Below are positions 1 through 32,866 of a stretch of 64,000 bases of DNA, one piece after another. Each line of letters opens with the position of its first letter. Position 1 is the stretch's first letter. The translations under genes and the position numbers were made by a program. The stretch is from Apiospora phragmitis (taxonomy: Eukaryota; Ascomycota; Sordariomycetes; Amphisphaeriales; Apiosporaceae). A model generated the notes under the pieces. It was given only the letters and a program-made list of their open reading frames with translations, searched no databases and had not been told where the DNA came from. The DNA lies in contig JAQQWL010000005.1 of NCBI GenBank assembly GCA_038363925.1, positions 3,906,001 to 3,970,000 of the forward strand. The letters run 5' to 3'.

Positions 1-3000
1 CCGGACCGGGAGCAGGTTCAAGCAGGGCCCGGGCACCTGGAGGACGTTCGGGAAGGAGGACCGGCTCCAGTTGGCGTTGGCCGCGCCGAAGACCAGGTCG
101 CGCGAGCCGATCGCCAGGAACAGCGCCGCGGCCCACGCGGCGCTCAGCGCGCTCGAGGGCAGGCCGAAGCGCGTCTGGAGGTTCCGGGACCGCGTCCGGA
201 AGGTGACGCTGCGGGTCTGGGTTGCGCCCCGGGCGGGCAGCCGCGGGGGCGTGAGGGCCGTCACGGACGATTTGGCCAGGAACGTGCGCCAGTAGTCGTA
301 CGAGGACGAGGAGCTCGCGGCGCCCACTTGCGCCACCCAGTCGGAGAATTTTGGCGTGTCGGACAGCGGCTCTCCCATGTAGGCTGCGTGAAGGTCTTGG
401 AGGACCAGCTCAATGGAGATGGCGTCGTATAGGGCATGATGGATGTGGAGGCGCAGCTCGTCGCAAGAGCTGTTGTCCGGGCCATCGCATCGCAGTTGGA
501 ACCGTGGCAAATACCGAGCCTGGTCGAAGCCCATCGGCTGTTCATCATGCCCCTGAATCGTCACGGTACTGGCGGGGGAGGGAACGGAGGACCGCTTGGT
601 GCAACCGGGGGCCTTCCTGTACGAACACGGTTCTCAAGAGCGCATGGTGCTGCACGACCTGCTCACACGCCTTGGCCAGGCGGGCCATGTCGAGGCCCCC
701 CAGCAGTTCGATGATGGCTTTGTTGTGCAGGCTCTCGCCGTCCAGCTCACTCACCGCGAGCTGGGAAGCTTGGGCGTCGGTGACCGGCACCGCGCTCTCG
801 ATGTTGTCGCTTCGGAAACAAGCGTGCCATGTCGCCAGGTCCGCGACGTGACGCAGTTCCACGGGGGCGGAGGCAAAATCGGAGTTGGCGTCCCTGGTCG
901 GAACCAAGTCTTGGCTTGACGCGCCGGAGCTGGAGGAAGGACGCGAGATGACGGCAGCCAGAGTGGATAGCACGGGGGCCTTGAAGACGTCGGCTACCGT
1001 AAAGGAGAGGTGGGCCGCTCTCGCTTGGTTGACCAGGCGCATCGCACGGATGGAGTTTCCGCCCAGCTCGAAGAAGTTGCCATCCCTGGCTATGGTGTCG
1101 GCGGGAAGAGCCAGGGCCTGCGACCAGAGCTGACGCAGCTCGGCCTCGGTATCCGAGAAGGTTCCGTCTGGCCGACGAAGTGGAAGGAGTGTTCTGACAG
1201 TTGCTTGTGGTGGAGCTTTCAGAAGTGTCCGAGTGCTCCCACGTCTTTGGGATGTCGTCGACGACAGTGGTCGACATGGTGCTTGGGCTGCTCAGTCGTG
1301 CCGTCAGATCCTGCACCGACTGCTCCGGGTTTTTCATGATGCTGTTCAGGGCGACGGAGAACATCGTTCCAACTTCTGAAGCATCGGAGATGGATATTCT
1401 GGTTTGGCCACACCATATCCGAGCCCCATACGAGTCTTGGTCGTACCCGACTCCAATGGTAAGGGGATACTGTGACAGCAGATTAGCAATGGTCTGCACA
1501 GGAGCTGGAAAAAACTGCCACTCACTTCGGTTGGGTTATCTTCAACATCTAGATACTCTTGCTTTATGTCCGAACCGACTTCTACGCCGCCGGGGCGAGT
1601 GCGCGCAATGGTCATGGCCGTGTTGAAAAGCGGCGAGTGGCCCATCCCGAGTTGGTCGTGCATTTCGCTCATCGGGCATCCGCCGTTCTCCAGAATAGCC
1701 AATGCATCGTCCCTGACACCCTCGAGGAGGCTACGCAAGGTGCTGCTCGGGGAAGCCTCAAAGTTGCAGACGACCATGGCCAGGAGGGGGCCCAAGGTCG
1801 ACTCGCCGCGTTCGACGGAGCTTTGTTGCGAGAGGATGCTGCCAAAACACACCGATTCCGTCGCCGTGCAGTTCTTCAGGACGATACCCCACGCAACCTG
1901 CACCAAGTTGGCGAGGGTGATGCCCTGACCCTTACAGAAGTCATGTAGAGTGCTGGCATCTCTTCTGGGGATTGTGTCGTGGAAGCTACTACTACTGGCT
2001 TCCGCCTTGGAGGAACTTGGGAGACCGAGTGAGGAACCAGGCAGGGTTTTACGCCCGAAAGATACCTCGACCAGTAATCGCGGGCCGAAGTGCGATGGTG
2101 GCGATCCCAGGCAACGTAGTCACCCAGGCCCGGTCCCGGAGCAAGTGCTGACAGGTCGGCATAGGCTTGGCGGAGCAGCTGGCCGAGGATGCCCATGGAT
2201 CGATCGTCCATCAGCACATGGTTTATGTAGATTGTGGCGTACACGACATAGCGAGAGACGCGCGTGAGATGCAGATGGTGCGGTGGCTGCGTCGGGGAGA
2301 TTCCCGGCATCGGGAAGTCCCCCCCCCCCGGGCGCAGGCGCGACTTGACAGGCCCTTGTGATATGGATGGGAACACATCCTTGAGTATAACCTGCTGGAA
2401 GGCGCATTCCGGGTCGGAGATGGAGCTGATGAAGAACGTGCGCAAAACGGGTTGGGCCTCGCAGATGGCTTGCCACGCCTTGGCGAGTTGGTGTGGATCG
2501 AGGCCTTCTTGGTTGTCGTCTGTGGACATCTTGATCCGCAATGTGTTCCAGTATTCATCCCCTTTTCCCTTCATCTGGGCGAACAGAATGCCATCTTGCA
2601 TGGAAGTGCACGGCAGCACGGGTTCGACTTCGGGCACTGAGATACCCATGGAAACGAGATGCCTGGAGAGTAGTTGCACTCTCGGCTTCTCTGAACCAGC
2701 CAGGTGTGTTTCGCGCAGGGTCAGTGAGGGCTCGGCCGGCTGAACAATGGACCCATCCCCGACATTTGCCTCGCCAGAGCAAGAGCTTCCGCCAGCGTCG
2801 GTGAACCCCGGAAGCCACTCCCCGGCGGAGGCCGCGTCGGCCAGAGTTTCGCTCCGAAGTAGTGTAGCTACTGACACCTTGACGCCCGACTTCTGCAGAG
2901 CGAGGAAATCTGCATCGCAGTGACGGAATCGCCCCCGAGCCTCAGCAAGGAGCTCTCCCTCCCAAGCCCTCCTTCCGGAACCGATAACACGGTTTCCCAT

Positions 3001-4310
3001 GACGAGTACAGCACCTTCTCTTTGGCCGTGGTTGGCCCGGACAACTGTGTCCGCCGCAATGAGCTGATGACTAGTCTAACGGCTGTCAGATCTTTCTTCC
3101 CCACCCACTCCTTGAGGCGCTGCCGATCCAGCTTCGCGGACGGCGTGCTAGGGAAGTCCTGGACCACTAGCCACGCTGTTGGGATCATGTAGGGTCATCG
3201 TGGCTTTCGGCCGACGCCTCGACCGTAGCAAAAGCGCCCCGAACGGCCGCGCAAGAGCAGATGGCTTTCTCCACCTCGCCGAGGTCGAACCGTTGCCCGT
3301 GGATCTTCACTTGGCTGCTCTGCCGTCCCATATACTCAATGCTGCCATCGGTGTAGTATCTCGCCAGGTCACCACTGCGCTACATGCACCGATCTTGCGG
3401 TGCCATCGACCCGGTCTGCCTCGAGGTGTCCACGACTGTGGCGGGATGAAGGATTCCGCCGTTCTGGTTTCGTCGTTCAGATAGCCTCGTGTCACTCCGG
3501 GGCCCTCTATGATCAGCTGCCTTACGGCCCCGATTGGGGCCAGCTTGTTCACGTTGGCCTCGTCGGCGATCCAGATGGCGCAACCCACAGGGGTGCCAAT
3601 GCTCTGCGGGTAAGGGCTGTCGGGGGCGAGTTCCGCCAGCGTGCTGCACATGGACGTCTCGCTCTGGCCCCATCCATTGAAGAAGCAGACCCCTGCCCGG
3701 GCCCATCGGAAGGCGGACTCGACATCGACTGCCTCGCCCGCCGAGCAGAGCGTCCGGAGGCCCGGCATGTCGCCGGGCGCGAATAGCCAGGTGACCGTGG
3801 GCGTCAGGGTGGCGCACTCGACCCCCGCCGCGGCCACGTAGCCGGCGAGGTCCGAGGACCGCGCCTCGTCCGAGGGGACGTACACGCAGCCGCCGAACAG
3901 CAGGGCGCCCAGCGTCTCGATGAGGCTGGCGCCCCAGACCGCGGAGGCGAACTGGAGGACGCGGGTGCCCGGCGTCCAGGCCAGACGGCGGCCGAAGGCG
4001 GTCAGGGCCGAGACGAGGTTTCTGTGCTCGAGGACGACACCTTTGGGGGCGCCTGTGCTGCCGCTCGTGAACAGGATGTACGCGGCTTGCGATGGTGAAG
4101 CGGGACGGTCCAGGGGCTGGAATTTGGTGTCGAGCATGCCCGCGAGAGTGTTCTCGCGGGCAACGACGATCTCAATCGCATGCCTGCCTCTTGAGGAGGT
4201 CGTGCAGGCATTGCTCGGGCACGTCCGGGGGACCCGCCCGGTTCCATTCCAGTACCTCGCGGCGGTCGTGAACGCCGACGAGCTGGAGCTTGCTAATGGT
4301 GGTCTCCTTA
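1..4310 (-). pseudogene. NRPS, downstream part (A-T-C-T-C...), broken, runs off left edge
   Basis: Reading leftward on the minus strand from the transposon, the adenylation domain begins near 4300. It has the A3 core (TSGSTGAPKG, about 4085-4050) and the A5-like core NGWGQSE (about 3680). Its last cores, up to the carboxy-terminal KLDRQRL, lie in other frames. A carrier domain with LGGDS follows (about 2920), then a condensation domain (2870-1350), a second carrier domain with ELGGNS (about 1060) and a further condensation domain whose HHALYD motif sits near 450. The edge cuts that domain. The product would build a peptide by thioester templating. A trailing T-C-T-C resembles fungal siderophore synthetases, but one A domain is too little to assign a product. 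Frame changes occur near 3400, 3200, 1900, 1200 and 550. Some may be sequence errors; the transposon insertion is not. Confidence 0.88.
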
Positions 4311-4365
4311 GGGTAAGCACCTTAACCACTTAGCCGTCCTACCACATAAGCAGCCACCTAAACTC
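4311..4365 (+). repeat. Left terminal inverted repeat of the Fot1-like element
   Basis: It pairs with 6198-6252 in inverted orientation. The central stretch around CTTAGCCGTCCTACCACATA is identical in both copies, and differences are mainly C/T changes, consistent with RIP. Confidence 0.9.
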
Positions 4366-5779
4366 AACACTAAACCACATCGTAACCTAAGTTTATTTTA
4401 CTAATAATTATTTAAAAAGAAATTAGAAAATTATAACTTTAACGAATTTTAACTTTAATATAGCTAGTAATATTAGAATCGCTTTTCGAATTTAAGTTAA
4501 TAATTTAAATCGCTTTATCTTCCTTCGATTTATCTTAAGGGTTATACTACTAGCCTGCTATTTTATCCTTAACTACTATCACATCTTATTTCGTAATAAA
4601 AGCACGATTAGGGTCTTTAATTACTTAATAAGGTTTAAACTTATATACTTTATTTAATTTAGCTTATAAACGATCCCTCTTTTATTTTAATTTAATTAAT
4701 TAAGCGTTTAAAGTATTAAGCCTTTTTTTAAGCTTACGAAATAATAGCCTCTTATAAGTATTATTAAGTTAAATATCCTCATTACGAGCTAAAGCTTCGA
4801 TCTAACGTATATACTAAGAGATAATAGGTGTAGGCGCTTCTCAAATAAGTGTCTACTAATCGTTAAGTTATTTAAGGCTTAAAAGGACCACTTTTTAACC
4901 GCGGCCCTACTCGTATCTACGTAACCGAGAGTTTAAGGGTTTAAAAATATCCCGTGGATAGATTCCGGTGGCTCGTTACCCGTTAACTATTACCTTAAGT
5001 TTAAAAGCTAACTCCCGGGCCCGGTATTACGCTTAAATAAAGTTAGTATTATTTATATTTATATTAAACATTAATTAATAGCGAAGAATTAAATATTTTC
5101 GAACTTTCTACTTTAATATCGAAAAAAATCTAGATTTAAAAGTTATAATATATAAAGAGGATATATTAATAAATATAATAATTAAATTTTATTAATTATA
5201 TATTCCGCTATAAAATAGTTTTATGCGTAATTACCGTAGCCGTTTAAAATAAATAGCCGCTATTACTCCGGGTTTTTCGGTTTTATTTATAATAAATAAA
5301 TATTTTATAATTATATTATCGCTAATATATTATTAATTAATCCTTTAAGTAAATAAGCGAATAACTAATTTTAAAAATTTATCCGTAGGTTATAAAAGTT
5401 ATCGCCGCGGTTTAAGAATTACTACTATTATACGCTAACGCCTTTAAAAATAATTAAAAAGGGTAAAGTAATATTATCTATATTTATAAATATTATAACG
5501 GTTACTTATTCGCGATAAGCGGTATTTTAAATAAAAATCTTAATTAATTCGGCTAAATTAATTATATAATAATTATTACTTAAGCTTATAATATTACTAA
5601 TTTTATTTATATTATAAATAAATCGGGCGGGAATATCCTTAATAAAATCCTGCCTTAAAAAAAAAAAAAAGCTGGATATTCTCTTCGAATATGTAGTAAA
5701 CGCGTCGGAAATTTATCGTCGTGGCTAGTATAGTCTTTAACTTATGGTAACGGGCGATAAATCTCCTTACTCAGTGGAT

Positions 5780-6083
5780 TTTAAAGGCAGGGCGCGCTGA
5801 TCTATTTTGAATAGCCGGGCGACGAACAGCTGGAACACGTTATACTTAAGGGCAAGGCCTAGCTACGCCTGTCAGATAGCCCAGGTTTTAAGATATTCCT
5901 CCTATGCGGAAAAGTGGCTCATAGCGGACTCCTTGGACTCGGTCCGGGTCGGTCTGCCTCTAATTATATCCCGTAAAGTGGCTGGGGTACCTTAAGTCTT
6001 TTAAAGGCTGCACGTTCCGACTCGCCAGCTTGTACGGCCAAAATGGCACGCTGAATGGCGGATTCGGGGGTTGGGATGGGCAT
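5780..6083 (-). pseudogene. Transposase N-terminus remnant (Fot1/pogo)
   Basis: From an ATG at 6083 on the minus strand the peptide contains a psq-type helix-turn-helix segment (ESAIQRAILAVQAGE, then AAFKRLKVPQ) typical of the DNA-binding N-terminus of Tigger/pogo/Fot1 transposases. The frame stops after PLYGI, but continuing in other frames gives RGRPTRTE and an EEYLKTWAI..QA.LGL segment with TAG/TGA in place of likely Gln codons. These are C-to-T changes of the RIP kind. The catalytic DDE core downstream is lost in AT-rich sequence, so the copy is dead. Confidence 0.8.
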
Positions 6084-8569: not shown

Positions 8570-11500
8570 ATGGACCCCAACCCACCCTTGGCTGTCGTTG
8601 GGTACGCCTATCGGGCCCCAGGAGTCGGGCGTAAAGGCCTGTGGGAGTTCCTGGCCGACGCCAAGTCTGCATACTCCCAAATCCCTCCGGACCGATTCAA
8701 CAAGGATGTATCCCATCATACCAGCGGCAAGCCTGGGTTCTTCCCATCAGAAGGGGGCCACTTTTTACCCGATGATGTATATGCTTTCGATGCATTGTTC
8801 TTCAATATCAAGGCCGAGGAGGCGCGGTCTCTTGATCCCCAGACCAGGCTCATGCTCGAGTGTGCGTTTGTCGCCATGGAGCAAAACTCAGGGGCGACCT
8901 AATTATGCACGTGGTAGCAGCAAAGCTGTCCACACTCCTTCCAAGAATCATACTAGAATGCGACTCACTAATCACCAATGTCGCCAGGATGACGCTGCCG
9001 GAGTTGGCTGGCGCCGATATCGGAGTTTTTGCCAGGCAACATTCTCCGACTACAGCATGCGCCTGATGGAAGACCTACAAACAGCAAACAGATATGCAGG
9101 GCTCGGCATTTCCCAGTCTCTAGTGGCCAATCGCCTTTCGTACTTCTTTGGGTTCATCGGGCCCAGTGTTTCGGTAGATGCCGCGTGTGCAGGTACTACG
9201 TACGCACTGCATCAGGCCTGCCAGAGCGTCAGGGCTAGTGACTGCTCCGCCGCTCTCGTGGGAGCTGCGAGCATCATCAGTGGCCCCGAGATGTGGGTTG
9301 CTTTGGCAGCCCTAGGGTATGTGTTTGGTGTTGGCTTTTGCTCGGAGCTCGTGGCTAACTTGACGCTAGTGCATTATCTCCGGAGGGCAAATCGTTCTCA
9401 TATGATTCGAGAGCAGCAGGCTTTGGCCGAGGCGAGGGCGGCGGTTATCTGATCGTCAAGCCACTCTCAGACGCCGTGGGCCGCGGTGACCCAGTAAGGG
9501 CGATCATTCGAGGTACGGCATGCAACCATTCGGGGCAGAGTAAGGGAATCACCATGCCATCACAGGCTGCCCAGGAGAGGCTGCTTGTTAAACTACATGA
9601 GTCTGCTGGACTTAGCCCCAGGGACACCACATTCGTCGAGGTAAGAACAACCCCCCCCGCCCCCCCTCCATTGCGAGTTCACCGTGGCTGAGCATCCACA
9701 GGGCCACGGCACGGGCACACAGGCGGGAGATCCCATCGATGCCGGCGCTATTGCAGCCGTGGTAGCAAAGGAGGCTTCCTCGAGCAATCCGACGTACCTG
9801 GGGTCGGTAAAATCCAATTTTGGGTCAGTTCCTCCGTCCTTTTAACTTGTTTTCTTGCCGTGTCTAACCATATACAGCCATCTGGAAGGAGCTAGTGGTT
9901 TGGTATCGGTGGTCAAGGCCATCATGATGCTCGAGCAAGAATGCCTGTTGCCTAACGCCAACTTCGAAAAGTTCAATCCTGACATAGTAGACGATGGGCG
10001 TCTGAAGGTGAGTTCCCGAGTCTTTTCATATTATTCGAGGTTTCGACTACGTGGGATCATTGGCTTACCAGGTATCCTCTGGCAGGTATTAAAGGAGCCG
10101 CTGTCGTGGCCCCCTAGCACTACAAAACGCGTCTGTGTGACTAATTTTGGTGAGCCGACAACTCGCAGTCTAACCACTTTGCATACTGTTATTGACAACA
10201 GTGCTTCTTAGGCTTTGGTGGCAGTAATGCAGCTGTTCTTCTCGAGCAAGCGTCGCAAGTCCAAACGAACGGTATTCACAAGCCGCTGGTGAATGGAATA
10301 TCTCCACACGCCGGCGCCGTGGCTATCGATGGTGATGATGTCTTCAAGCCAGATCCTGCTGAACGGGCATTCACCCTCCACAGTCGCAAATGAAAAGTTG
10401 TTCGTCGTTTCTGCCAAATCTTCTACAAGCCTCGAGGCTTATATCTCGTCCATGGCCGATTACCTTGAGAAACAGCCCACCTCAACCCAGTTCCTACAGG
10501 ACCTGAGTTTCACCCTGGGCCAGCGCCGAACCCACTTCCCTCGTCACCGGCTGGCCGTGAGTGCGGACTCCCTGGGCTCGTTGCTAGACCAACTGAAATC
10601 AGCGCCTCCCAATTCCAAAACAGCCGAAACACTGGACGGAACCATCGCCTTCATCTTCACCGGTCAAGGTGCCCAGTACTTCCAGATGGCCGCTGGACTG
10701 GAGAAGTACGATGCATTCGCCAACGCTATCAAGCGAGCAGAGTCGCTCCTTACTGAACTTGGCGCTCCGTGGTCTTTGACGGAAGAGCTTGCAAAGCCCC
10801 AGAGCGAGTCCCGGATAGATGATGCTGAACTCAGCCAGCCGGTCTGTACGGCCATCCAGCCTGCCCTCGTCGCATTGCTGCAGTCCTGGGGCATTTCGCC
10901 AGCCGCTGTGGTCGGGCACTCGAGTGGTGAGATTGCCGTTCTCTTCCCGTTCACAGGCTTCTTCTCCTTGGCCGTGGAGGCGTTCCGAAGGGTGCATGAC
11001 GCTAGCACCCCGCTGCCGAACGTGCTCGTCCGAGAGTTCCACGTGACGCGAGGTCTCCGCATCAAGGAGGACGAGCAAGTCGATCTCACGACCAAGATGC
11101 GCCCGGCCGACATGGGGACCGAGTTGACGTCTACCGCCGCATGGGCTTTCGAGGTCATGTCGTGGTCGAGCGCCCACGACTGGACCGTGCATTGTCGCGG
11201 GCTGGTGGAAAGGGACCATGGCGAAACGTTCGAACCAAACCTTGCTGTTCAAGCCGCGGCTCTCCTTCTGGAACAGCCGACAGCGCAGCCGCTCGACCAC
11301 GAGGCAGAATACGCCTTCCAGAGGCAGAACGGTGTGGTCTACGGCCCAACCTTCCTCAACATGATTGACATGCGTCGTCTTTCTGGCGCCATCATCCACA
11401 CCATCCAACTCCGCGACATCGAGGCTATGCTATCGCAGGACGCGTCTGCTGCCACGGTCGACCCGCCTACGTTGGGCTCCTTCTTCTAGACCATAGGAGC

Positions 11501-14500
11501 TTTGCAGGAGCTCGAAGGGCCGAGGCCAGTCCACGTGCCTACCCACACATGTCGATGGCGCATTTCCAACAGCATCGCGGCCGATGCGGGCCACCAATTC
11601 ACCGTCGTGAGCACGAGGCTGTCTCATGACACCAAGTCTAGCAACCTGCACCTCAGCTTCGTCGTCTTCGACTTGTCTAGTGGATCTCCGCAGCCCGTGA
11701 TGGAGGTCGACGATATGGCGCTCAAGACCATCACCCAGCTCAGTGACGAGTCCGTGGTGGACGGGCTGCCGAAGACGTATTTCACGCGCCATGTGCCGCA
11801 CGTCGATCTCATCGATGGCTCGGTCCTCGCCAAGACCATCACGCCGCCAGCGGCCGAGGTGGAGGAGCCTGCTGCTGGAGATTCTCCGCGGCGAGATCGA
11901 GCCGCTCGAGATCATGCTCGAGGACGGCCTGCTCACGCGCTACTACGAGCAGGACCCGGCGAACAAGCGTTCCACCGAGGCCCTGGCCAAATACGTCGGA
12001 CTCCTGTACGACTGCAACCCCGATATCCGAATACTCGAGATCGGTGGCGGTACGGGAAGTGCGACGTTGCCGGTGTTGGAGGCCATGGAGCAGGCGCTCG
12101 AGGGTGCCTCGGCCAGTTTCGGGTACACCTTCACCGACATCTCGGCCGGCTTCTTCGACAACGCCCGCACCAAGATCGGCCGCTGGTCCAAGCACACATC
12201 ACGTACAAGAAGCTCGACATCAGCCAGGACCCCTTGTCTCAGGGGTTCGTCGCCGAGGACTACGACCTGATCATTGCCGCCAACGTGCTGCATGCGACGC
12301 CGGATATCGTGCAGACGATCCAGAACACAAGCATGCTGCTGAAGTCCGGTGGCAAACTCGTGCTGCTCGAGCTCACCAAGACGTCGCTCCCGCTGGCATT
12401 CCCGTTCGCCTCGCTCCCCGGCTGGTGGCTGTCCGAGGATACCTACCGCTCCATCGATGGGCCGCTGCTGTCCGAGGACTCCTAGCGGGCTCTGCTGGGT
12501 TCCAACGGGTTCCCGACATAGACGGGCTCGTCGATGACTATCCCGGGGAGCCTGAACAGTTCTTGACGACCATTTGGTCTACCAAGCATTCTCAGTTGGC
12601 GGAGCCGAGCGGATGTTTCAACGTGTGCCAAGTGTCGAGCGGAGGAACGTGCGATAACGCATTGACCGACCTGATCTCGCAGGAACTGGTCGAGTCAACT
12701 GTTTCTCCACTGTTGGAACTCGATGTAGACTCGAAGACAACTTGCGTCTTCGTGGATGATCCAGAGCGCAGCGTCTTTAGTGACCCGTCCCCCGAAATGT
12801 TTTCTGTCCTGTAGAAAGCGCTGACGGAGTCTGCTTGCCATGTGCTCTGGGTCACTCCCGCCAACTCGCACCCGGACTCGGCTTTGGTCAAGGGCTTCTT
12901 ACGCACTCTCCGTATAGAAGACGACTCGAAGGCTTTCGTGCTCCTCGAGAACGCCACCTTTGACAAAGCAGGCCTCCAGGCGATATCTCAGCTGGCCCTG
13001 CGGTTGAGTGAGCCCAGCATTCTGGACGAGCAAGAATACTCCATGGTCCACGGCCTGCTCCACGTCCCGCGCTTCTGCCCGCACGAGCCGGCGGCTCAGA
13101 CATTCGCTATGGAGGCCGGAGTTTCCGTCAAAGAGGAACAGAGCATCCGGAGTGCAGATGAGCAGGTTCTCGAAATGACTGTGGACGCCGTGGGGAGCCC
13201 CGATTCCATCTTCTTCCGCGACACGACCAAAGACGTCTTTGAGCAGCCCCTGAGCGGCGATGAAGTCATCATCCAGGTCGGCGCCATCGGTGTTAGCTTC
13301 CGGGACCTCCTCCTCGTCCTCGGCCCCTTGCCTTGGCATCCCCCGGGCATGGAGGGAGCTGGAGTAGTGGTTCGGGCTGGACCGGATGCGTCCGATCTGC
13401 AAATCGGCGACCGGGTGTTTTACACCATCACCCAGGCTGGAATGACCAACTATGTGCGGACGCGTTGCCCGCAGGTCTACAAGCTCCCCGACGGTCTGGA
13501 CATGGCCGATGCGGCCTCGATGCCCATCGCATACTGCACGGCACTCCTGAGTCTCGTGGACACTGCCCACATCTAACGCGGCGAGAGCGTCTTGATCCAC
13601 GCCGCCGCGGGCGCCCAGCACCTCGGCGCCCGCATCTTCGCCACAGCCGGCACGCCCGGGAAGCGCGCCTTCCTCACCCAGACATTCGGCCTCCCCGCGG
13701 CCCACGTCTTCTCGAGCCGCGACGCCGGGTTCCGCCGCGGCCTCCTGCTGGCGACGGCCGACCGCGGCGTCGACGTCGTGGTCAACTCCCTGAACGGCGC
13801 CCTGCTGCGCGAGTCCTGGGAGCTCATCGCGCCGCACGGCCGCTTCGTTGAGCTCGGCAAGAAGGATTTGTTGCTGAATAGCCACCTCGCGATGCGACCC
13901 TTCTTGCAGAATGCGAGCTTCCACGGCCTCGACGTGCGTGCGGTCGAGGGGGTGCGCGGGTGGCTGGCCGAGGTCGTGGCGCTCTACCAAAGCGGGGCCA
14001 TCGGGCCCATCCGGCCGGTGACACGGGTGCCTATCTCCCAGATGGCGGCGGGGCTGCGCAGGCTGCAGTCGGGCTACAACGTCGGCAAGGTCGTGTTGAC
14101 GCTAGGGGCCGACGAGAGGGTCTTGGCGGAGCGGTTCCCGCCGTTGGCTGTCCCGTCTACCACCAGCTTGGGGACGACGATGAAGACGCTGCTGTCTCCG
14201 GACGCTACGTACCTCATCACCGGCGGGACGGGCGGTATCGGACGCTCGTTGGCCGAGTGGATGTCCAAACAAGGAGCGAAGCACATCATCATGCTTGGAC
14301 GCAGCAGATCGTCGAATCCCAAGGTGGCGGAGCTGTTGACAAGATACGACGGCACTGATGTTTACATGCGCGCGATCGCGTGTGATGTCGGGTCCCGCGA
14401 CAGCCTGCTCCGCATGAAGGAGGAGATCAAAGATTTGCCGCCTGTCCTTGGTGTTGTTCACGGAGCACTGCTCCTACGCGTAAGTTTTATCCGCTTCGGA

Positions 14501-15427
14501 GCCCCCCACCACCTACGCGCTGGGAATTGGACTAAATGATGTCGATCTTATTGCAGGATGCCATGTTTCTGAACTCCACATTCGAGGACTACCAGAACAT
14601 CACTCGTCCGAAGATGCAGGCCGCTTGGTTGTTGGATGAGTTATTCCCCAACCTTGATTTCTTCGTGTCCTTGTCGTCGATCGACTCCATCATCGGCCAC
14701 TTGGGCAGTCCATATACGCGGGAAGCTCGGTAAGAACCATCTCCCCCATTTCCCCTGTGCCACACTCAAGAGGGCTAACTTCTAAACCATGACAGACGTT
14801 CCTCGACGCCTTCTCGGAACACCGCATCAAGCAGGAAAAACCCGCCGTATCCATCAGTCTGCCCGTTATCGAAGGCGTGGGCTACGTGGCCGACCGCGGA
14901 ATCGGCGACCAGCTGAAGGGCTCCCTGGGCCTGAGCCTCGGGGAAGAGCAGCTGTACACGCTCATCAAGGGCGCCATCCTCGGCCCGGCCTCGGGCCTGA
15001 ACGTCGACGGCCGGAGCTTCTCGTTCGTCAGCACCCTCACGGCCGCCGAAACGCTCCCGTGGGGGCACTTCCATCCGCTCCGGGCCATTCGGCCGCTACA
15101 GCACCCCCTCGGGCGAGACCGCAGACAACAACAGATCCCAGGCGGCCGGAGGAGGGGGGCGCGAATGGGCACAGCAGGGGAGTGGATATGTCGCCGGAGG
15201 CCCTCATGGAGGCGCTGCGGACCAAGGTGTCGAACGTCACGATGCTGGACCGGGATGAGATCACGCCGGAGCGGAGTCTGGCTCACTACGGGCTAGACAG
15301 TCTGGTGTCGGTCGAGTTGAGAAACTGGATTCGTAGAGAGTATGGCGCCGACTTGGCGCTCAAGGATATCGTGGCGGCACGCCATCTGAATGCCCTGTCC
15401 AAGGAGATCTTGTCGCAGATTAAGTAA
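8570..15427 (+). pseudogene. Highly reducing type I polyketide synthase, KS-AT-DH-cMT-ER-KR-ACP, inactivated
   Basis: ATG at 8570. The KS is spread over short exons (introns near 8890-8990, 9317-9369 and four more up to about 10210) and keeps its Cys in DAACAGTT (about 9180). The AT begins near 10640 and reaches the active-site GHSSGE (10915), then jumps directly into the middle of the DH domain (LFPFTGFFSLAVEA), so the AT C-terminus and the DH His region are deleted. DH, cMT (ILEIGGGTGSATL, 12030), ER (12850-14100), KR (TGGTGGIGRSLAEW, 14220) and ACP (GLDSLVSVEL, 15290) follow. In-frame stops lie at 11487, 12483, 12812 and 13574; all can be explained by C-to-T changes in Gln or Trp codons. 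The ER lacks about ten residues at its NADPH loop. Frame changes occur near 9030, 11860, 12230 and 12510. Confidence 0.93.
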
Positions 15428-24886: not shown

Positions 24887-27563
24887 ATGTCCGCTCTATC
24901 ACTAGCCATCCGGGCAATAAAACGGCTCCAGGGGGTGGTCGACGACTTGCGCGCCCAGCCTGCATGCCTGCAATTTTGCGAGAGTCTGAAGATCATTCTG
25001 ATTGATCTCCTCAAGTGCTTCCGGAGCCTTCCCGAGGACAAACATTCCGAGAATGAGGCGAGTGCATTGCTCGAGCGACTAGACAAGCTCTGCAGGGTAA
25101 TTAGACATGTCATCCAACAACTTTGGCCACACATCTAAGATGATCCTAGTTGCAAAATACGCCCGCTCAACCCGCACCGCCCAGTGTGGCCCTTGATGGA
25201 GGTTCCTCGTGTGTCGCTCTACTATTGGCCGAGTCGGAATCGGTGGTTTGGGCCATACGTGACGTGGCGAGTAATCCACAGTCACTGAGGCAGCGGAAAA
25301 CGACCCTTGCTTCGCTTAAAGCTTTCCTACCCGAGGATCTGGAGCAAGGGAACATTGACATCTCACCTTCCGATACCGATCTCCGATCTATAGGCGACGA
25401 ACCTCCCGAGTGTGGAAGAGAGATCCGATCGCTTCACGCCGCTCTGTCCGCACAATGTCTCTGCACCGACTCAGACGAGATGCTAGCCCGAATCAGACTC
25501 CGCAGCACATTGGAAGGTGACAGTGCAAATATCACCTTTGGGATGGTTTTCATGGCCCATCCGCATCGCACCCAGACCGATCTTCCATTGCAGCCATTAT
25601 GGCAGGATACGTATTTTTCCATTAGCCGTACTGTGTTAGTCCCTACTCCTATACGTCCTTGTCCTCAGTCATGTTCCATTAACATCATACTGATGTGTCT
25701 TGCAGTGACTTTGACACCGGTTCTGGGATCGACTACGAGGAGATTCGATCGGATTCCGGGTATCCATTCTGTTCTTACATATCGGCTCAAGACGAGCATG
25801 GCATAGTGATGTTGAAGTTCACGATCAGAGGACGCAAGCTATACTTCGAAGACACCATGGAACTTTCCAGCTACTGTGAAACCGATAAGCCCAGTGTTTC
25901 CCTCGGCCAACTCTTGGAAGGGATATCTGCGAGCGGCTTGACGGAGAAGAGAAAGGAAGTGTTGTCGTGGCCTTTAGCAAAATCCATCTGGCAATATTAC
26001 AACTCCCCTTGGATGCAGCAGCCATGGAACAAAGAAAGCGTGCACTTTCTCCTGGAGCGGCGGCATGACGAGGATGGTCATGACGTTGCGGGAATATTCG
26101 TGAACGAACCGCTCCTCTCGGTCTCTATTGGCCGCCGTATGCAGGCCTCCGGGGGTGACACGGCGAACGAATCGGGGCCGGGAACAGTCAAACGCGAGCC
26201 CGACGCACAACGACGTCGCTCGCCCTTCCTCAGCAGACCGCGGCACCCGATACCAAAGATGCTTGCGTTGGGTATGATGCTCGTGGAGATACAGCTCGGG
26301 CAGCCCATCGAGACGCTTTACAGCCAAACTGAATGGTCCAAGTACTGCCCGCAGGGAAAGGAGAACCAGAACACGGACCACAGGATCTGCAAAGACCTCA
26401 TTGGGAAGAAGCACTTCTTCGAGGACATCTCGGATCCCCTGGAAGCCCCATAACGTGAAGCCCCTGAGTCTGGCGTGCACTTTACCCCCGACAGAAACCG
26501 CTGGTCATGCACCGTTGCCACTACCAAGGTCCGTACTACGCACTCCCAACGCAGATGCCACCAACACTACTAGGCCTCGTCGTACCATGGCACAAATGTG
26601 AGTTCACAGGCCCAATAGTCTTGTTCATGTCGCTAACGGGACTTAGCACAAACTCCACCACAACCAAAGACTGGTTCAAGCGAATGTCCGGTCTCAACTA
26701 CATCCCCAAGGCTGGAGAGGGGGATACGTTTGAGAAAGTTAAGATCGCCGTCCTGGATACGGGAGTTGACCCCGACGATGCCGCTTCCGTTTACGTAGAC
26801 GGGTACCGAGACTTTGTGAGTGGAAATGACAGCATCAAATGCGACAACACCGGTCATGGGACGACTTCGGTTAACCTCATCTTCCACATGTGCGAGTCGG
26901 CCTCGGTCCACGTTATTCGAATCTTTGAGTCGGATGAAGCAAACGAAAACACTCAAGAATTAGCAGTACAGGTCAGTCTTTCTCTCCCGCCTGATATATG
27001 ATCTCCAGTAAGCGGAAGTAACAGTGCACGACCACTGACTTTAACTGCCAATGACCAGGTCCTTGACTGGTGCATCCAGGAACAATTGGATGTCCTCTGT
27101 CTTGCATGCGGATTCGTCGATTCCAGCCAGGAGCTGTATGACAAATTCCATGAAGCCTCGGGGAAGATGCTCATACTGGCGGCTCCAACCAACGAAAGCA
27201 ACGCCGGCGAGATAGCGTATCCCGCTAAATACGACGATGACGTGTTGTGCATCTTCTCCACTGACGGTGCCGTCAGAAACTCTCAGCGGCTCAATCCCTC
27301 CAGAGGCCTGGGCAGGAACAACATCAACTTTCGCCATCCTCGGTGAAGACATTAAGACTATGAGTGGAGAGGTGAGATCCGGAACGTCCTTCTCGACCGC
27401 CATCGCTGCAGGACTGGTCGGTCGTCTGCTGGAGTTCTCCAGGCACAGAGACTGCAAAGGCCTCATCAAGAACGCCTCCATGCTCAAGGTGAAGTATGGT
27501 ATGACTAAAGTCCTGATGTCTATGGCTATGACAGACTCCGAGTTTCAGTGCTTGAAGCCTTAG
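24887..27563 (+). CDS. Subtilisin-like (S8) serine protease with helical, DUF7580-like N-terminal half
   Basis: ATG at 24887. Five exons are inferred with introns 25097-25149, 25635-25705, 26598-26646 and 26972-27058, giving about 800 residues. The N-terminal half is helical (residues 1-90) followed by a region ending HPIPKMLALGMMLVEIQLGQPIE, the hallmark I associate with the fungal DUF7580 domain. The C-terminal half is a peptidase S8 domain with Asp in IAVLDTGVD (26750), His in GHGTTSV (26855) and Ser in SGTSFSTAIAAG (27380). The frame is broken at about 26446 (four C, three restores it) and near 27300, so the native gene may be intact. It has no signal peptide and is likely cytosolic. Its stop is 200 bp from the stop of the convergent gasdermin-like gene. 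In Podospora the HET-Q2 subtilase cleaves the gasdermin HET-Q1. Confidence 0.82.
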
Positions 27564-27760
27564 AGGTTACTTCGCTCCGAGCTGCTGAAACGGATCCCGT
27601 TTGAAACATCTGGTTATCCCCATTGGAAGGAACGGGAGGAAGCACGAGACCGCATCTGCAACTTGATCAGGGATCGTTTGGAGGATGCATGGTAATGAAG
27701 CAAGCGACGTTGATATAGGAGGAATTGAGCAGCATGTAGTTACATAAGGAGAGAATACTA

Positions 27761-28793
27761 TCAATATTCATCGATAGCAATCAGGTGTTCCGGATCCTCC
27801 CCCTGCAGCACTTCCAAGTCATGCACATTCTCACCAGCCAGACCTGCATCAAACAGAAGCTCGGCCATGTCGAGTTTCTTGGGCCCTGACGCGAACACGG
27901 TGCCCTTGGTGACGGTCTTCTGCGATATGTTGGACTGGAAAAGTGACTTGGAGACCTCGGTAAGGCGGACGGCCCAGACGAAGTCGTTTAGGCTTTGCCC
28001 AGAGATGTTGACCTCCTTTTCTCTCTTGTTTTCAATGTTGGCCTTGGCCCCGGCTGCCCCGAATAGATCCCTGATCGACAGTCAGCTAAAGCGATGTACA
28101 ACTGGAATGGATCTGATGATGCACACGGGACAATACTCACACTTCGCCACTCACATGCACGCCCGCCTCATTCCCGTCATTGCGTCCAAACTTGGCGCCG
28201 CGGGCAACGATGATGCCACTGATCACTGCCGTCGCACCAGTCAGTCGTTAGAAACCCCAAAGCGTCACCATGGAACTGGCGCAGGTAGATTTGATTGATA
28301 TACAAGAACGGCGAGGCGACTCACTATAAACCTTCCATGTGCCTAGAAGCTTATGCCTCTCCACCCAGGAAGCCAAGTGCTCCGACCGGCTGCACTGCTC
28401 CAAGTACGCCGACGTCGGCTGCACGATCTGCGTCTCCAGCCGATCGATCTCCCACTCCTCGCCCATCAGCCTCCTGAACACCACCCCGGCCTCGGCGTCG
28501 ACAGTGAGCCCCGCCGCCGCCGCGACGGGCGCGTCGGCCCCGACCGTATTGTCGTGCACGCGGCCCTCGCGGCGCGAGAGCCGGAACTGCGCCGTCTCGG
28601 TCACCCAGATGCGCATATCGCGCGGGAAGGGCGTGACGGCGTCCGGGTTGAGGACCTGGTCCAGCCGCTTCGGCCCCGCGACGAAGTGGCCCAGGCGGAT
28701 CGGGCCCTCGGCGTCGCCAAAGGCCTTGCCGGGCGCGGTGTAGACGGGGGCGGGGTAGTGCCGCTGGCGGAGGACGAACCAGCATTTCTCCAT
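27761..28793 (-). CDS. Gasdermin-like protein (RCD-1/HET-Q1 family)
   Basis: ATG at 28793. Exons 28325-28793, 28141-28225 and 27761-28070 join in phase to 287 residues, close to the size of fungal RCD-1 and HET-Q1. Motifs matching that family are GPIRLGHFV near the start, a Gly/Ala-rich patch (PVAAAAGLTVDAEAG, about residues 95-110) that would form membrane hairpins, WEIDRLETQIVQPT, and MISGIIVARGAKF across the first intron. The conserved fold ends near residue 228 and is followed by a tail of about 60 residues, which in HET-Q1 is the inhibitory part removed by proteolysis. Family members permeabilise the plasma membrane during regulated cell death and allorecognition. No frame defects are seen. 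The assignment rests on motif recall, not a search. Confidence 0.8.
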
Positions 28794-30409: not shown

Positions 30410-32866
30410 ATGCCAAATTCAACCCCGCACTCGGCCTTCCGCTTGCCCCTCCTCCTCCTCCTCCTTTCTTTGCTTTCGCTGCTAGCAAACATCAGCACCG
30501 CACTCGCAGCCCATGCCGACGATGGCGATGACATCCTCCGCCTCATCAACCCCCTGATCGGCAGCACCAACGGCGGCAACGTCTTCGCCGGCGCCACCCG
30601 CCCCTACGCCCTGGCCAAGCCCGTCGCCAACGTGGACGGCCAGAACACGGGCGGCTTCGCGACCGACGGCTCCAAGGTCACGGGATTCAGCGCCGTGCAC
30701 GATCTGGGCACGGGCGGCAACCCCAGCCTCGGCAACTTCCCGCTGTTCCCCCAAGTCTGCCCCCAGAGCGGCGATGACGGTGTGAACAGCTGCCAGTTCC
30801 GCATCGGCGACCGCGCTCCCCACTACGTCAACGACAGCGTGGTCGCGGAGCCGGGGCGCTTTGCCGTCGAGCTGGTGTCGGGGGTCAAGGCGCAGATGAC
30901 GAGCAGCGAGCATGCGGCCTTGTACCGGTTTGAGTTCCCGACGGGAGGAGGAGGCGACCCGCTCGTGCTTCTCGATTTGACCGACTTGTGGCAGAGTCGG
31001 CAGAACGCTTCTGTCAGTGTGGATGCCTTCACTGGTCAGCTCAAGGGCAACGGCACCTTTCTTCCCAGCTTCGGCGCCGGTTCCTATGTGATGCATTTCT
31101 GCGTCGATTTCCATGGCGGCGACGTTCGCGACAACGGCGTGTGGGTCAACAACCGCGCCGGCACGGAACCGAAAAGCTTGTATGTGACCCGCGGGTTCAA
31201 CTTATTCTTCGTGGAGGCAGGGGACTGGGTCCGGTTCCAGAACCTCGCCAACAACACCCTGACGGCACGGATGGGGCTCAGTTTCATCAGCACCGAACAG
31301 GCTTGTAATCATGCGGCCACCGAGATACCTAAGCCTTTGACGGACTTCGACCGCCTCGTGTCGGAGACCCAAGATGCATGGCGTCAGAAGTTGAGCCCCA
31401 TCTCGATCAAGGCGGGGGGTGCAAGCGAGGACCTGCAGAGCAGCTTCTGGAGCGGCATCTACCGCGGCATGATATCGCCCCAGAACTACACGGGCGAGAA
31501 CCCCCATTGGGACAGCGGTATCCCCTATTTCGACTCGTACTACTGCATCTGGGACGCCTTCCGCGTGCAGCACCCACTCCTCACCATACTGGACCCCGTG
31601 GCACAGTCGCAGATGGTCAACAGCTTGTTGGACATCTACAAGCATGAAGGGTGGCTCCCCGACTGCCACATGAGCATGTGCTCCGGGTTGGACACAGGGT
31701 GGCTCGAACGCAGACGTCGTGCTGGTGGATGCATATGTGAAGAACCTGACGGGAATTGACTGGCAGCTCGCCCTCGAAGCCATTATCCAAGACGCCGAGG
31801 TCGAGCCCCTGGAGTGGTCCTACCAGGGACGGGGCGGCTTGCAGAGCTGGAAGAGTCTCGACTATATCCCCTATCTGGACTTTGACCCCCTGGGCTTCGG
31901 GACCAACTCGCGCAGCGTCTCGAGGACGCTCGAGTATGCCTACAATGACTACTGCCTTGCCACGTTGGCCCAGGGGCTCGGGAAGGCCGACGTCTACGAC
32001 AAGTACATCCAGCGGAGCACAAACTGGCGCAACATCTGGAAGGAAGACCAGACCTCCGCCATCCAGGGAAATGACACTGGCTTCAAGGGGTTCTTCCAGC
32101 CCAAGTACATGAATGGGACCTGGGGCTACCAAGATCCTATCGCCTGTTCGGCGTTAGCAGATTTCTGCTCGCTGACCACGAACCCGAGCGAAACGTTCGA
32201 AGCCAGCATCTGGCAGTATCAATTGTAAGTTGCTGGATGACTGAATAACCTCCGCATTGACTCTAGTGACTGACATGTCACAGTCTTGTGCCCCAACAGA
32301 TCTCGACGTTGATCTCCCTGATGGGCGGCGACGAAGAGTTCATATCCCGCCTGGACTTCTTCCACACCTCGGGCCTCGCCGACATCTCCAACGAGCCCGT
32401 CTTCTCGACGGTCTACCTGTACCACTACGCGGGCCGCCCGGCCCTGTCGACGAAGCGGCTGCACACGTACATCCCCTCCCGGTTCCGCAACACGAACGAC
32501 GGCCTGCCGGGCAACGATGACAGTGGCTCCATGGGCGCCTTCGTCGTGTTCGGCATTATGGGCCTGTTCCCCATCGCGGGCCAGAATGTGTACCTGATCT
32601 CGGCGCCCTTCTTCGAGGAGCTGCGCGTGACGCACGGCGTCACGGGCAAGACGGCCACGGTCCGCGTCGTGGGCGGGTTCGACCCGGCTTATGCTAACGT
32701 GTCGATTCAGAGCGTCACGGTCAATGGTGAGCCCTGGACCCGGAATTGGATCACGCATGAGCTGTTTACCGAGGGGTGGACGATGGAGATCACGCTGGGG
32801 GCGGAGGAGTCGGCGTGGGGGACGAGGCCGGAAGATCGTCCGCCGAGTCGGATTAGTGGTAGTTGA
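30410..32866 (+). CDS. Secreted GH92 alpha-1,2-mannosidase
   Basis: ATG at 30410 begins a strong signal peptide (LPLLLLLLSLLSLLANISTALA). The mature start INPLIGSTNGGNVFAGATRP is typical of the GH92 N-terminal beta-sandwich domain. The catalytic (alpha/alpha)6 domain includes YFDSYYCIWDAFR, the QGGSNADVVLVDAYVKN motif (in the next frame), a probable catalytic Glu in FEASIWQY (about 32200) and the Asp pair in GNDDSGSMGAF (about 32515). The intron at 32225-32283 splices in phase. One frame shift near 31690, where an extra T in GGGTTGG breaks the strongly conserved motif, may be a sequence error. The enzyme would trim alpha-1,2-mannose from N-glycans or mannans outside the cell. Otherwise about 800 residues, normal for the family. 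Confidence 0.9.

Follow-up and report, generated by a model that had tools for sequence, protein, structure and literature searches.

An intact fungal gasdermin gene beside a probably disabled HET-Q2-like protease in Apiospora phragmitis

A stretch of 64,000 nucleotides from Apiospora phragmitis (Sordariomycetes, Amphisphaeriales, Apiosporaceae), covering positions 3,906,001-3,970,000 of contig C5 in an assembly of 52.67 Mb and 19 contigs and here called the window, carries a fungal gasdermin gene and, convergent with it, an interrupted gene for an S8 protease with an N-terminal DUF7580 half. The pair is best explained as a gasdermin/HET-Q2-like protease module of a known kind, in which the gasdermin is intact and its dedicated protease has probably been disabled recently. 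Coordinates given without a contig name are positions in the window.

Enumeration of splice variants gave a single longest gasdermin model of three exons (28793-28325, 28225-28141, 28070-27761) and 287 residues, identical to the NCBI protein PG994_005198. This bears out the convergent three-exon gene of the first-pass annotation, an earlier reading of the same DNA. The gasdermin features are:

28325..28793, minus strand: exon 1, identical to the NCBI protein; the PDB match to RCD-1-1 spans residues 1-244
28141..28225, minus strand: exon 2, with a splice model equal to the NCBI protein
27761..28070, minus strand: exon 3 with the stop codon (27761-27763)
27893..27895, minus strand: codon of Phe244, the predicted P1 residue past the invariant Gly241, from the alignment and by analogy with F238 of HET-Q1
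27764..27892, minus strand: C-terminal acidic tail of 43 residues (11 acidic, 2 basic), predicted to be inhibitory by analogy with the 40-residue tail of HET-Q1

Compared with the PDB as a single sequence, the protein matches RCD-1-1 (8jyz) at E 2.4e-38, so that homology to the pore-forming domain of solved fungal gasdermins covers residues 1-244, and RCD-1-2 at 6.4e-31. The HET-Q1 pore (9uv9) is matched at E 6.2e-4 with the single sequence and at 1e-6 with a profile of 25 homologues, and nothing was matched in Pfam or NCBIfam. Judged by sequence, the gene is thus a fungal gasdermin, as had been proposed, nearer to RCD-1 than to HET-Q1, and the match is not due to chance. A homologue search that required shared 5-residue words returned 47 proteins, query included: first seven more Apiospora entries, which are 65-83% identical, then Clarireedia, Trichoderma, Thozetella, Cercophora and others, with the closest gasdermins outside Apiospora at E about 1e-98. 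The alignment used below holds 25 of the 47, most fragments and metagenome entries having been left out. The A. phragmitis protein is conserved, with 1 of 88 otherwise invariant columns altered (3 of 134 within Apiospora). A nested position of RCD-1 inside this gasdermin clade was considered and rejected, as the backbone of the tree around RCD-1 is unresolved and HET-Q1 and a second gasdermin form long branches. That second gasdermin-like gene of the same genome lies on the minus strand at C6:2,558,187-2,558,837, matches RCD-1-2 at E 1.4e-5 and is interrupted in the assembly by one in-frame stop. Head to head with it lie TPR and S8-protease-like frames (L024 800-2780), which makes this a second candidate pair.

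Gly241 is present in all 25 aligned homologues and is followed by A/S/T, by V/T/A and then by F (18 proteins), L (6) or M (1), behind which every aligned member has a further 39-49 residues as a tail, 7-14 of them acidic and 0-4 basic. A short tail behind a bulky hydrophobic residue, as in HET-Q1, is therefore found in 25 of the 25 aligned proteins, chosen from the 47. According to PMC10989679 and PMC12881547, HET-Q1 has 278 residues, of which it probably loses 40 through a cut at F238; by this analogy, Phe244 is a candidate cleavage site at a HET-Q1-like position, and the acidic tail may be inhibitory. RCD-1-1 and RCD-1-2 of Neurospora crassa, the closest solved sequences, are by contrast activated by co-expression of two alleles rather than by a protease and have no such tail (PMC12881547). 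Their kinship, together with the statement in the same source that RCD-1-1 (257 residues) and RCD-1-2 (244 residues) are not cleaved, would suit an action of the A. phragmitis protein in which it meets a different allele after cell fusion, with no proteolysis. This is nevertheless very improbable, since the RCD-1 proteins end about where the A. phragmitis tail begins, the acidic tail is a constant feature of the aligned members, and a protease is often the neighbour. With its 43-residue tail, the protein also departs from the RCD-1 type, a gasdermin without a cleavable tail.

The protease locus lies on the plus strand and ends 197 bp from the gasdermin, a distance measured between its own TAG (27561-27563) and the stop codon of the gasdermin gene and close to the 200 bp first estimated. 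Its features are:

24887..25096, plus strand: exon 1, N-terminal part, equal to the start of the NCBI model P0053/PG994_005196
25150..25634, plus strand: exon 2, with FSISRTV-like residues that are dropped in the NCBI model and kept by most relatives
25706..26453, plus strand: exon 3 with the DUF7580 domain, ending in TAA at 26451-26453
26442..26453, plus strand: junction of the lost stretch, with 42 codons gone, a frame change and the stop TAA at 26451-26453
26587..26971, plus strand: start of the S8 piece (PG994_005197), with an intron at 26598-26646 and the catalytic Asp and His motifs
27059..27331, plus strand: S8 piece continued; its approximate end is a one-base frame break at about 27300-27332
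27332..27563, plus strand: S8 piece with the catalytic Ser (GTSFST), closed by the in-frame TAG at 27561-27563

With introns at 25097-25149 and 25635-25705, the N-terminal part stays open to 26450, and DUF7580 is recognised on the NCBI model P0053 at 68.8 bits (cut-off 27). The S8 motifs lie at about 26,740-27,420. None of the raw S8 frames taken singly reaches the cut-off; a six-frame match above it (29.1 against 21.8 bits) spans the Asp and His part, the Ser part is contained in PG994_005197 (58.3 bits), and the catalytic Asp, His and Ser are all present. The earlier proposals of an S8 neighbour with catalytic motifs, of a DUF7580 N-terminal half as putative sensor and of kinship to the het-Q1/het-Q2 type stand. 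NCBI annotates two genes here, PG994_005196 (472 residues, DUF7580) and PG994_005197 (267 residues, S8), adjoining PG994_005198; the second begins at a conserved internal ATG (26587), and its model crosses the frame break with a 37-base intron at 27267-27303, a place where the aligned full-length relatives have coding residues.

As for the putative sensor, a DUF7580 profile of 23 segments aligned with 19 kinases of the same genome at an hhalign probability of 74 (E 2.8e-5) over 67 columns in the C-terminal part of the kinases, while four control comparisons gave 0.09-1.5. The usual kinase catalytic motifs could not be recognised by eye in the conserved DUF7580 blocks, which is why this half is proposed as a candidate pseudokinase sensor rather than a kinase. 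A PDB search with only the DUF7580 piece gave no credible result (a single match, E 0.14). Kinase-like domains fused to proteases that control fungal gasdermins are already mentioned in the Fig. 6 legend of PMC12881547, and the name DUF7580 was not met in the literature searched. The genome holds a second DUF7580 and S8 gene at C6:3,560,426-3,563,965, near which tblastn and the gasdermin profile found no gasdermin (C6:3,552,500-3,571,900, about 8 kb on each side).

Comparison with relatives shows what the locus looks like when uninterrupted. Among 8000 candidates scored, 31 matched the protease, and 23 of these were aligned, all of which keep the catalytic Asp, His, Asn and Ser. Eight other Apiospora relatives are single chains of 789-888 residues with DUF7580 and S8, and both domains also share one chain in Trichoderma virens (790 residues), Clarireedia (894), Thozetella (856) and Cercophora (801 and 932). 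According to precomputed Pfam labels, and beyond the A. phragmitis piece, DUF7580 stands alone in 2 of the 31 matches (Trichoderma velutinum, 702 residues; Fusarium albosuccineum, 514 residues) and S8 alone in 3. Pairing was read from two signs, namely consecutive locus tags or, as a proxy, contigs of equal size. Consecutive tags join the two genes in A. phragmitis, Apiospora sp. TS-2023a (016383/016384), A. rasikravindrae (011648/011649) and Clarireedia jacksonii (006026/006025), and equal-size contigs link 11 more (A. aurea, A. hydei, Thozetella, T. velutinum, Cercophora scortea, C. newfieldiana and five metagenome contigs), so that 15 of the 47 gasdermin matches are linked to a protease match and the adjacency extends beyond one genome. 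Furthermore, gasdermin and protease distances are correlated over 9 pairs, A. phragmitis excluded (Pearson 0.84, Spearman 0.67; shared ancestry not removed).

In A. phragmitis, the single open frame that joins sensor and protease in the eight other Apiospora is absent from the assembly, being interrupted at three places. The first lesion falls between DPLE and KP-x-N-V-K-P-L, where A. phragmitis lacks 42 residues that 8 of 8 other Apiospora proteins keep; the same stretch has 41 residues in Clarireedia, and its flanking pattern is unmatched in T. virens and Thozetella. The missing residues correspond to 471-512 of the relative P0052 (880 residues) and begin inside the kinase-aligned part of DUF7580, and protein arithmetic puts the loss at about 128 bases, an estimate from the proteins of relatives and not from their DNA. 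The second is a one-base frame change at about 27,300-27,332, just ahead of the conserved FAILGED motif. The third is the TAG at 27561-27563, which removes a C-terminal stretch that most relatives still encode and past which the same frame extends to a TAA at 27693-27695. The first-pass annotation had assumed one protease gene with two frame breaks, a count that has to be revised in view of the third lesion, the 42-codon loss and the two NCBI genes. A working two-gene switch is likewise unsupported in this genome because of the three interruptions and the loss of a stretch that all eight other Apiospora keep.

How the damage arose was also considered. Repeat-induced point mutation (RIP) was rejected, the RIP index being negative over protease and gasdermin, as was repeat-mediated loss, since at the settings used neither direct nor inverted repeats turned up in 26300-26700 (none of at least 10 bases at the junction). 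The sole strong RIP signature among the 1-kb steps of the window belongs to an AT-rich block at 4,001-6,000 (GC content 0.41 and 0.30).

The trust to be placed in these lesions depends on the assembly. Among 10 CCT and 11 HSP70 loci, eight neighbouring pairs of pieces lie less than 35 bases apart in different frames, and the four of them that were read, in two CCT and two HSP70 genes, are frame changes that leave no space for an intron, after which conserved sequence resumes at once in the other frame. These four stand at C15:487,110-487,176, C4:140,560-140,572, C13:1,354,407-1,354,437 and C1:2,615,270. A GH92 gene about 3 kb from the locus has a similar frame change near 31,690 (31,674-31,756), with no intron and with profile positions 131 and 132 meeting. 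The assembly therefore seems to contain base-level insertion or deletion errors. The sequencing method behind it was not found in a literature search; for a Nanopore assembly of Apiospora arundinis, a hybrid study reports an estimated base accuracy of 99.984% before short-read correction (PMC10999098).

Several observations weigh against a recently disabled module. With one-base breaks present in essential genes and also in GH92, assembly error may account for the break near 27,330 as well as for the frame across the lost stretch, and the lesions are not proven real, coming as they do from a single assembly with base-level errors. Of 103 otherwise invariant columns, 3 are altered in the S8 part, as against 0-3 of 100-103 in other Apiospora. 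Within an Apiospora-only pool it has changed 9 of 155, more than any of the other eight members, which show 1-7 of 147-153. Relaxed selection on the S8 part is not clearly seen in these counts, and the small number of changes implies either selection until recently or damage less complete than it looks, the protease then not being dead. At the level of the family, 32 of the 47 gasdermin matches have no recognised protease by the two signs, which is no proof that a protease is absent. The two Cercophora are sisters in the gasdermin tree (81/86) and not in the protease tree, and many forks in these trees are open; full agreement of the two trees is not seen, only a partial one.

On the strength of the housekeeping frame breaks, the retained catalytic residues and the little relaxed S8 part, it could be argued that the protease is functional, its breaks being assembly errors or the marks of a shortened working variant, and that the two-gene switch works in this strain. 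This appears unlikely. A loss of about 128 bases is atypical of base-calling error, the junction shows no repeat of the length sought, the TAG is a separate lesion, and among the 10 CCT and 11 HSP70 loci whose coordinates were read, none of the matched pieces falls short of its profile stretch by close to 40 positions. Since one-base breaks also occur in the CCT and HSP70 genes, it is the large loss and the TAG that weigh most. Given an intact gasdermin and a protease that has lost the end of DUF7580 and its frame and carries a late stop, the local trigger has most likely been disabled recently.

The loss could instead have split the sensor from the protease, leaving PG994_005197 as a free S8 gene comparable in make-up to the 388-residue S8 protease HET-Q2. 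The separate 267-residue gene annotated from the conserved internal ATG agrees with such a fission, as does the published 'pseudogenization' model, in which sensors turn constitutively active by rearrangement (PMC10197012). Even so, a constitutively active protease beside an intact gasdermin should kill in a haploid genome, and the S8 frame is broken ahead of the catalytic Ser unless the 37-base intron over coding residues is accepted; fission is accordingly rated quite improbable. There is a similarly slim chance that an allorecognition system is forming here by the 'pseudogenization' route, with the sensor cut off, the protease disabled and the gasdermin intact and conserved. Were this so, cells would die on fusing with a strain whose protease allele is active or deregulated, and the locus would be a natural intermediate towards incompatibility of the het-Q1/het-Q2 kind.

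Among known systems, HET-Q1/HET-Q2 of Podospora anserina shares with the present pair the short gasdermin tail past a bulky hydrophobic residue and the S8 subtilase partner. It differs in that its two genes are idiomorphs of different strains, whereas in the one A. phragmitis genome compared at this locus both stand side by side and not as alternative alleles; moreover, HET-Q1 is a distant likeness (E 6.2e-4), and HET-Q2 is much shorter than the Apiospora proteases of 789-888 residues with their DUF7580 half. Reportedly, Clave et al. described Q2L protease-fungal gasdermin two-gene clusters in 2022. Such clusters resemble the A. phragmitis locus in combining an adjacent gasdermin and an S8 protease with an extra sensor-like domain, and differ from it in that the protease member is broken here. 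About 80% of fungal gasdermin genes adjoin a protease gene and about 60% an S8 protease gene (PMC10989679), the S8 share being given as 63% in PMC10197012. The coexistence of both partners, which the first-pass annotation had singled out as distinctive, is therefore the common fungal state, with the het-Q idiomorphs as a special case. Since pairs are the rule in fungi, coexistence in one genome is normal and the idea of a conditional switch is already known; the assignment of the gasdermin to a protease partner is right and ordinary.

In the relatives with an uninterrupted protease, the N-terminal half with DUF7580, possibly pseudokinase-like, would hold the protease inactive until a cue released the S8 domain, which would then cut the gasdermin after Phe244 and free its N-terminal domain from the acidic tail; the freed domain would form pores in the plasma membrane and kill the hyphal cell. 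In A. phragmitis, the protease would have lost the end of DUF7580 and its reading frame and would carry a late stop, leaving the gasdermin intact without its local trigger.

Elsewhere in the window, a polyketide synthase at 10,293-14,536 is without most of its acyltransferase domain (profile positions 2-98, then DH from 38), has in-frame stops at 11,487, 12,812 and 13,574 and looks degenerate. In addition, condensation-domain pieces resembling nonribosomal peptide synthetases lie in differing frames on the minus strand at 1-3,075.

What the pair adds is a recurrent family in which an RCD-1-like gasdermin with a tail stands beside a protease, found in several Apiospora, Clarireedia, Thozetella, Cercophora and Trichoderma velutinum. 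Such a family would fit the published view that RCD-1 is derived from an older gasdermin pathway. It also provides a concrete cleavage prediction, Gly-x-x-[Phe/Leu/Met], and a candidate pseudokinase sensor in the DUF7580 half. If the lesions in A. phragmitis are real, an intact gasdermin beside a broken trigger would offer a natural case in which to test how incompatibility loci of fungi originate.

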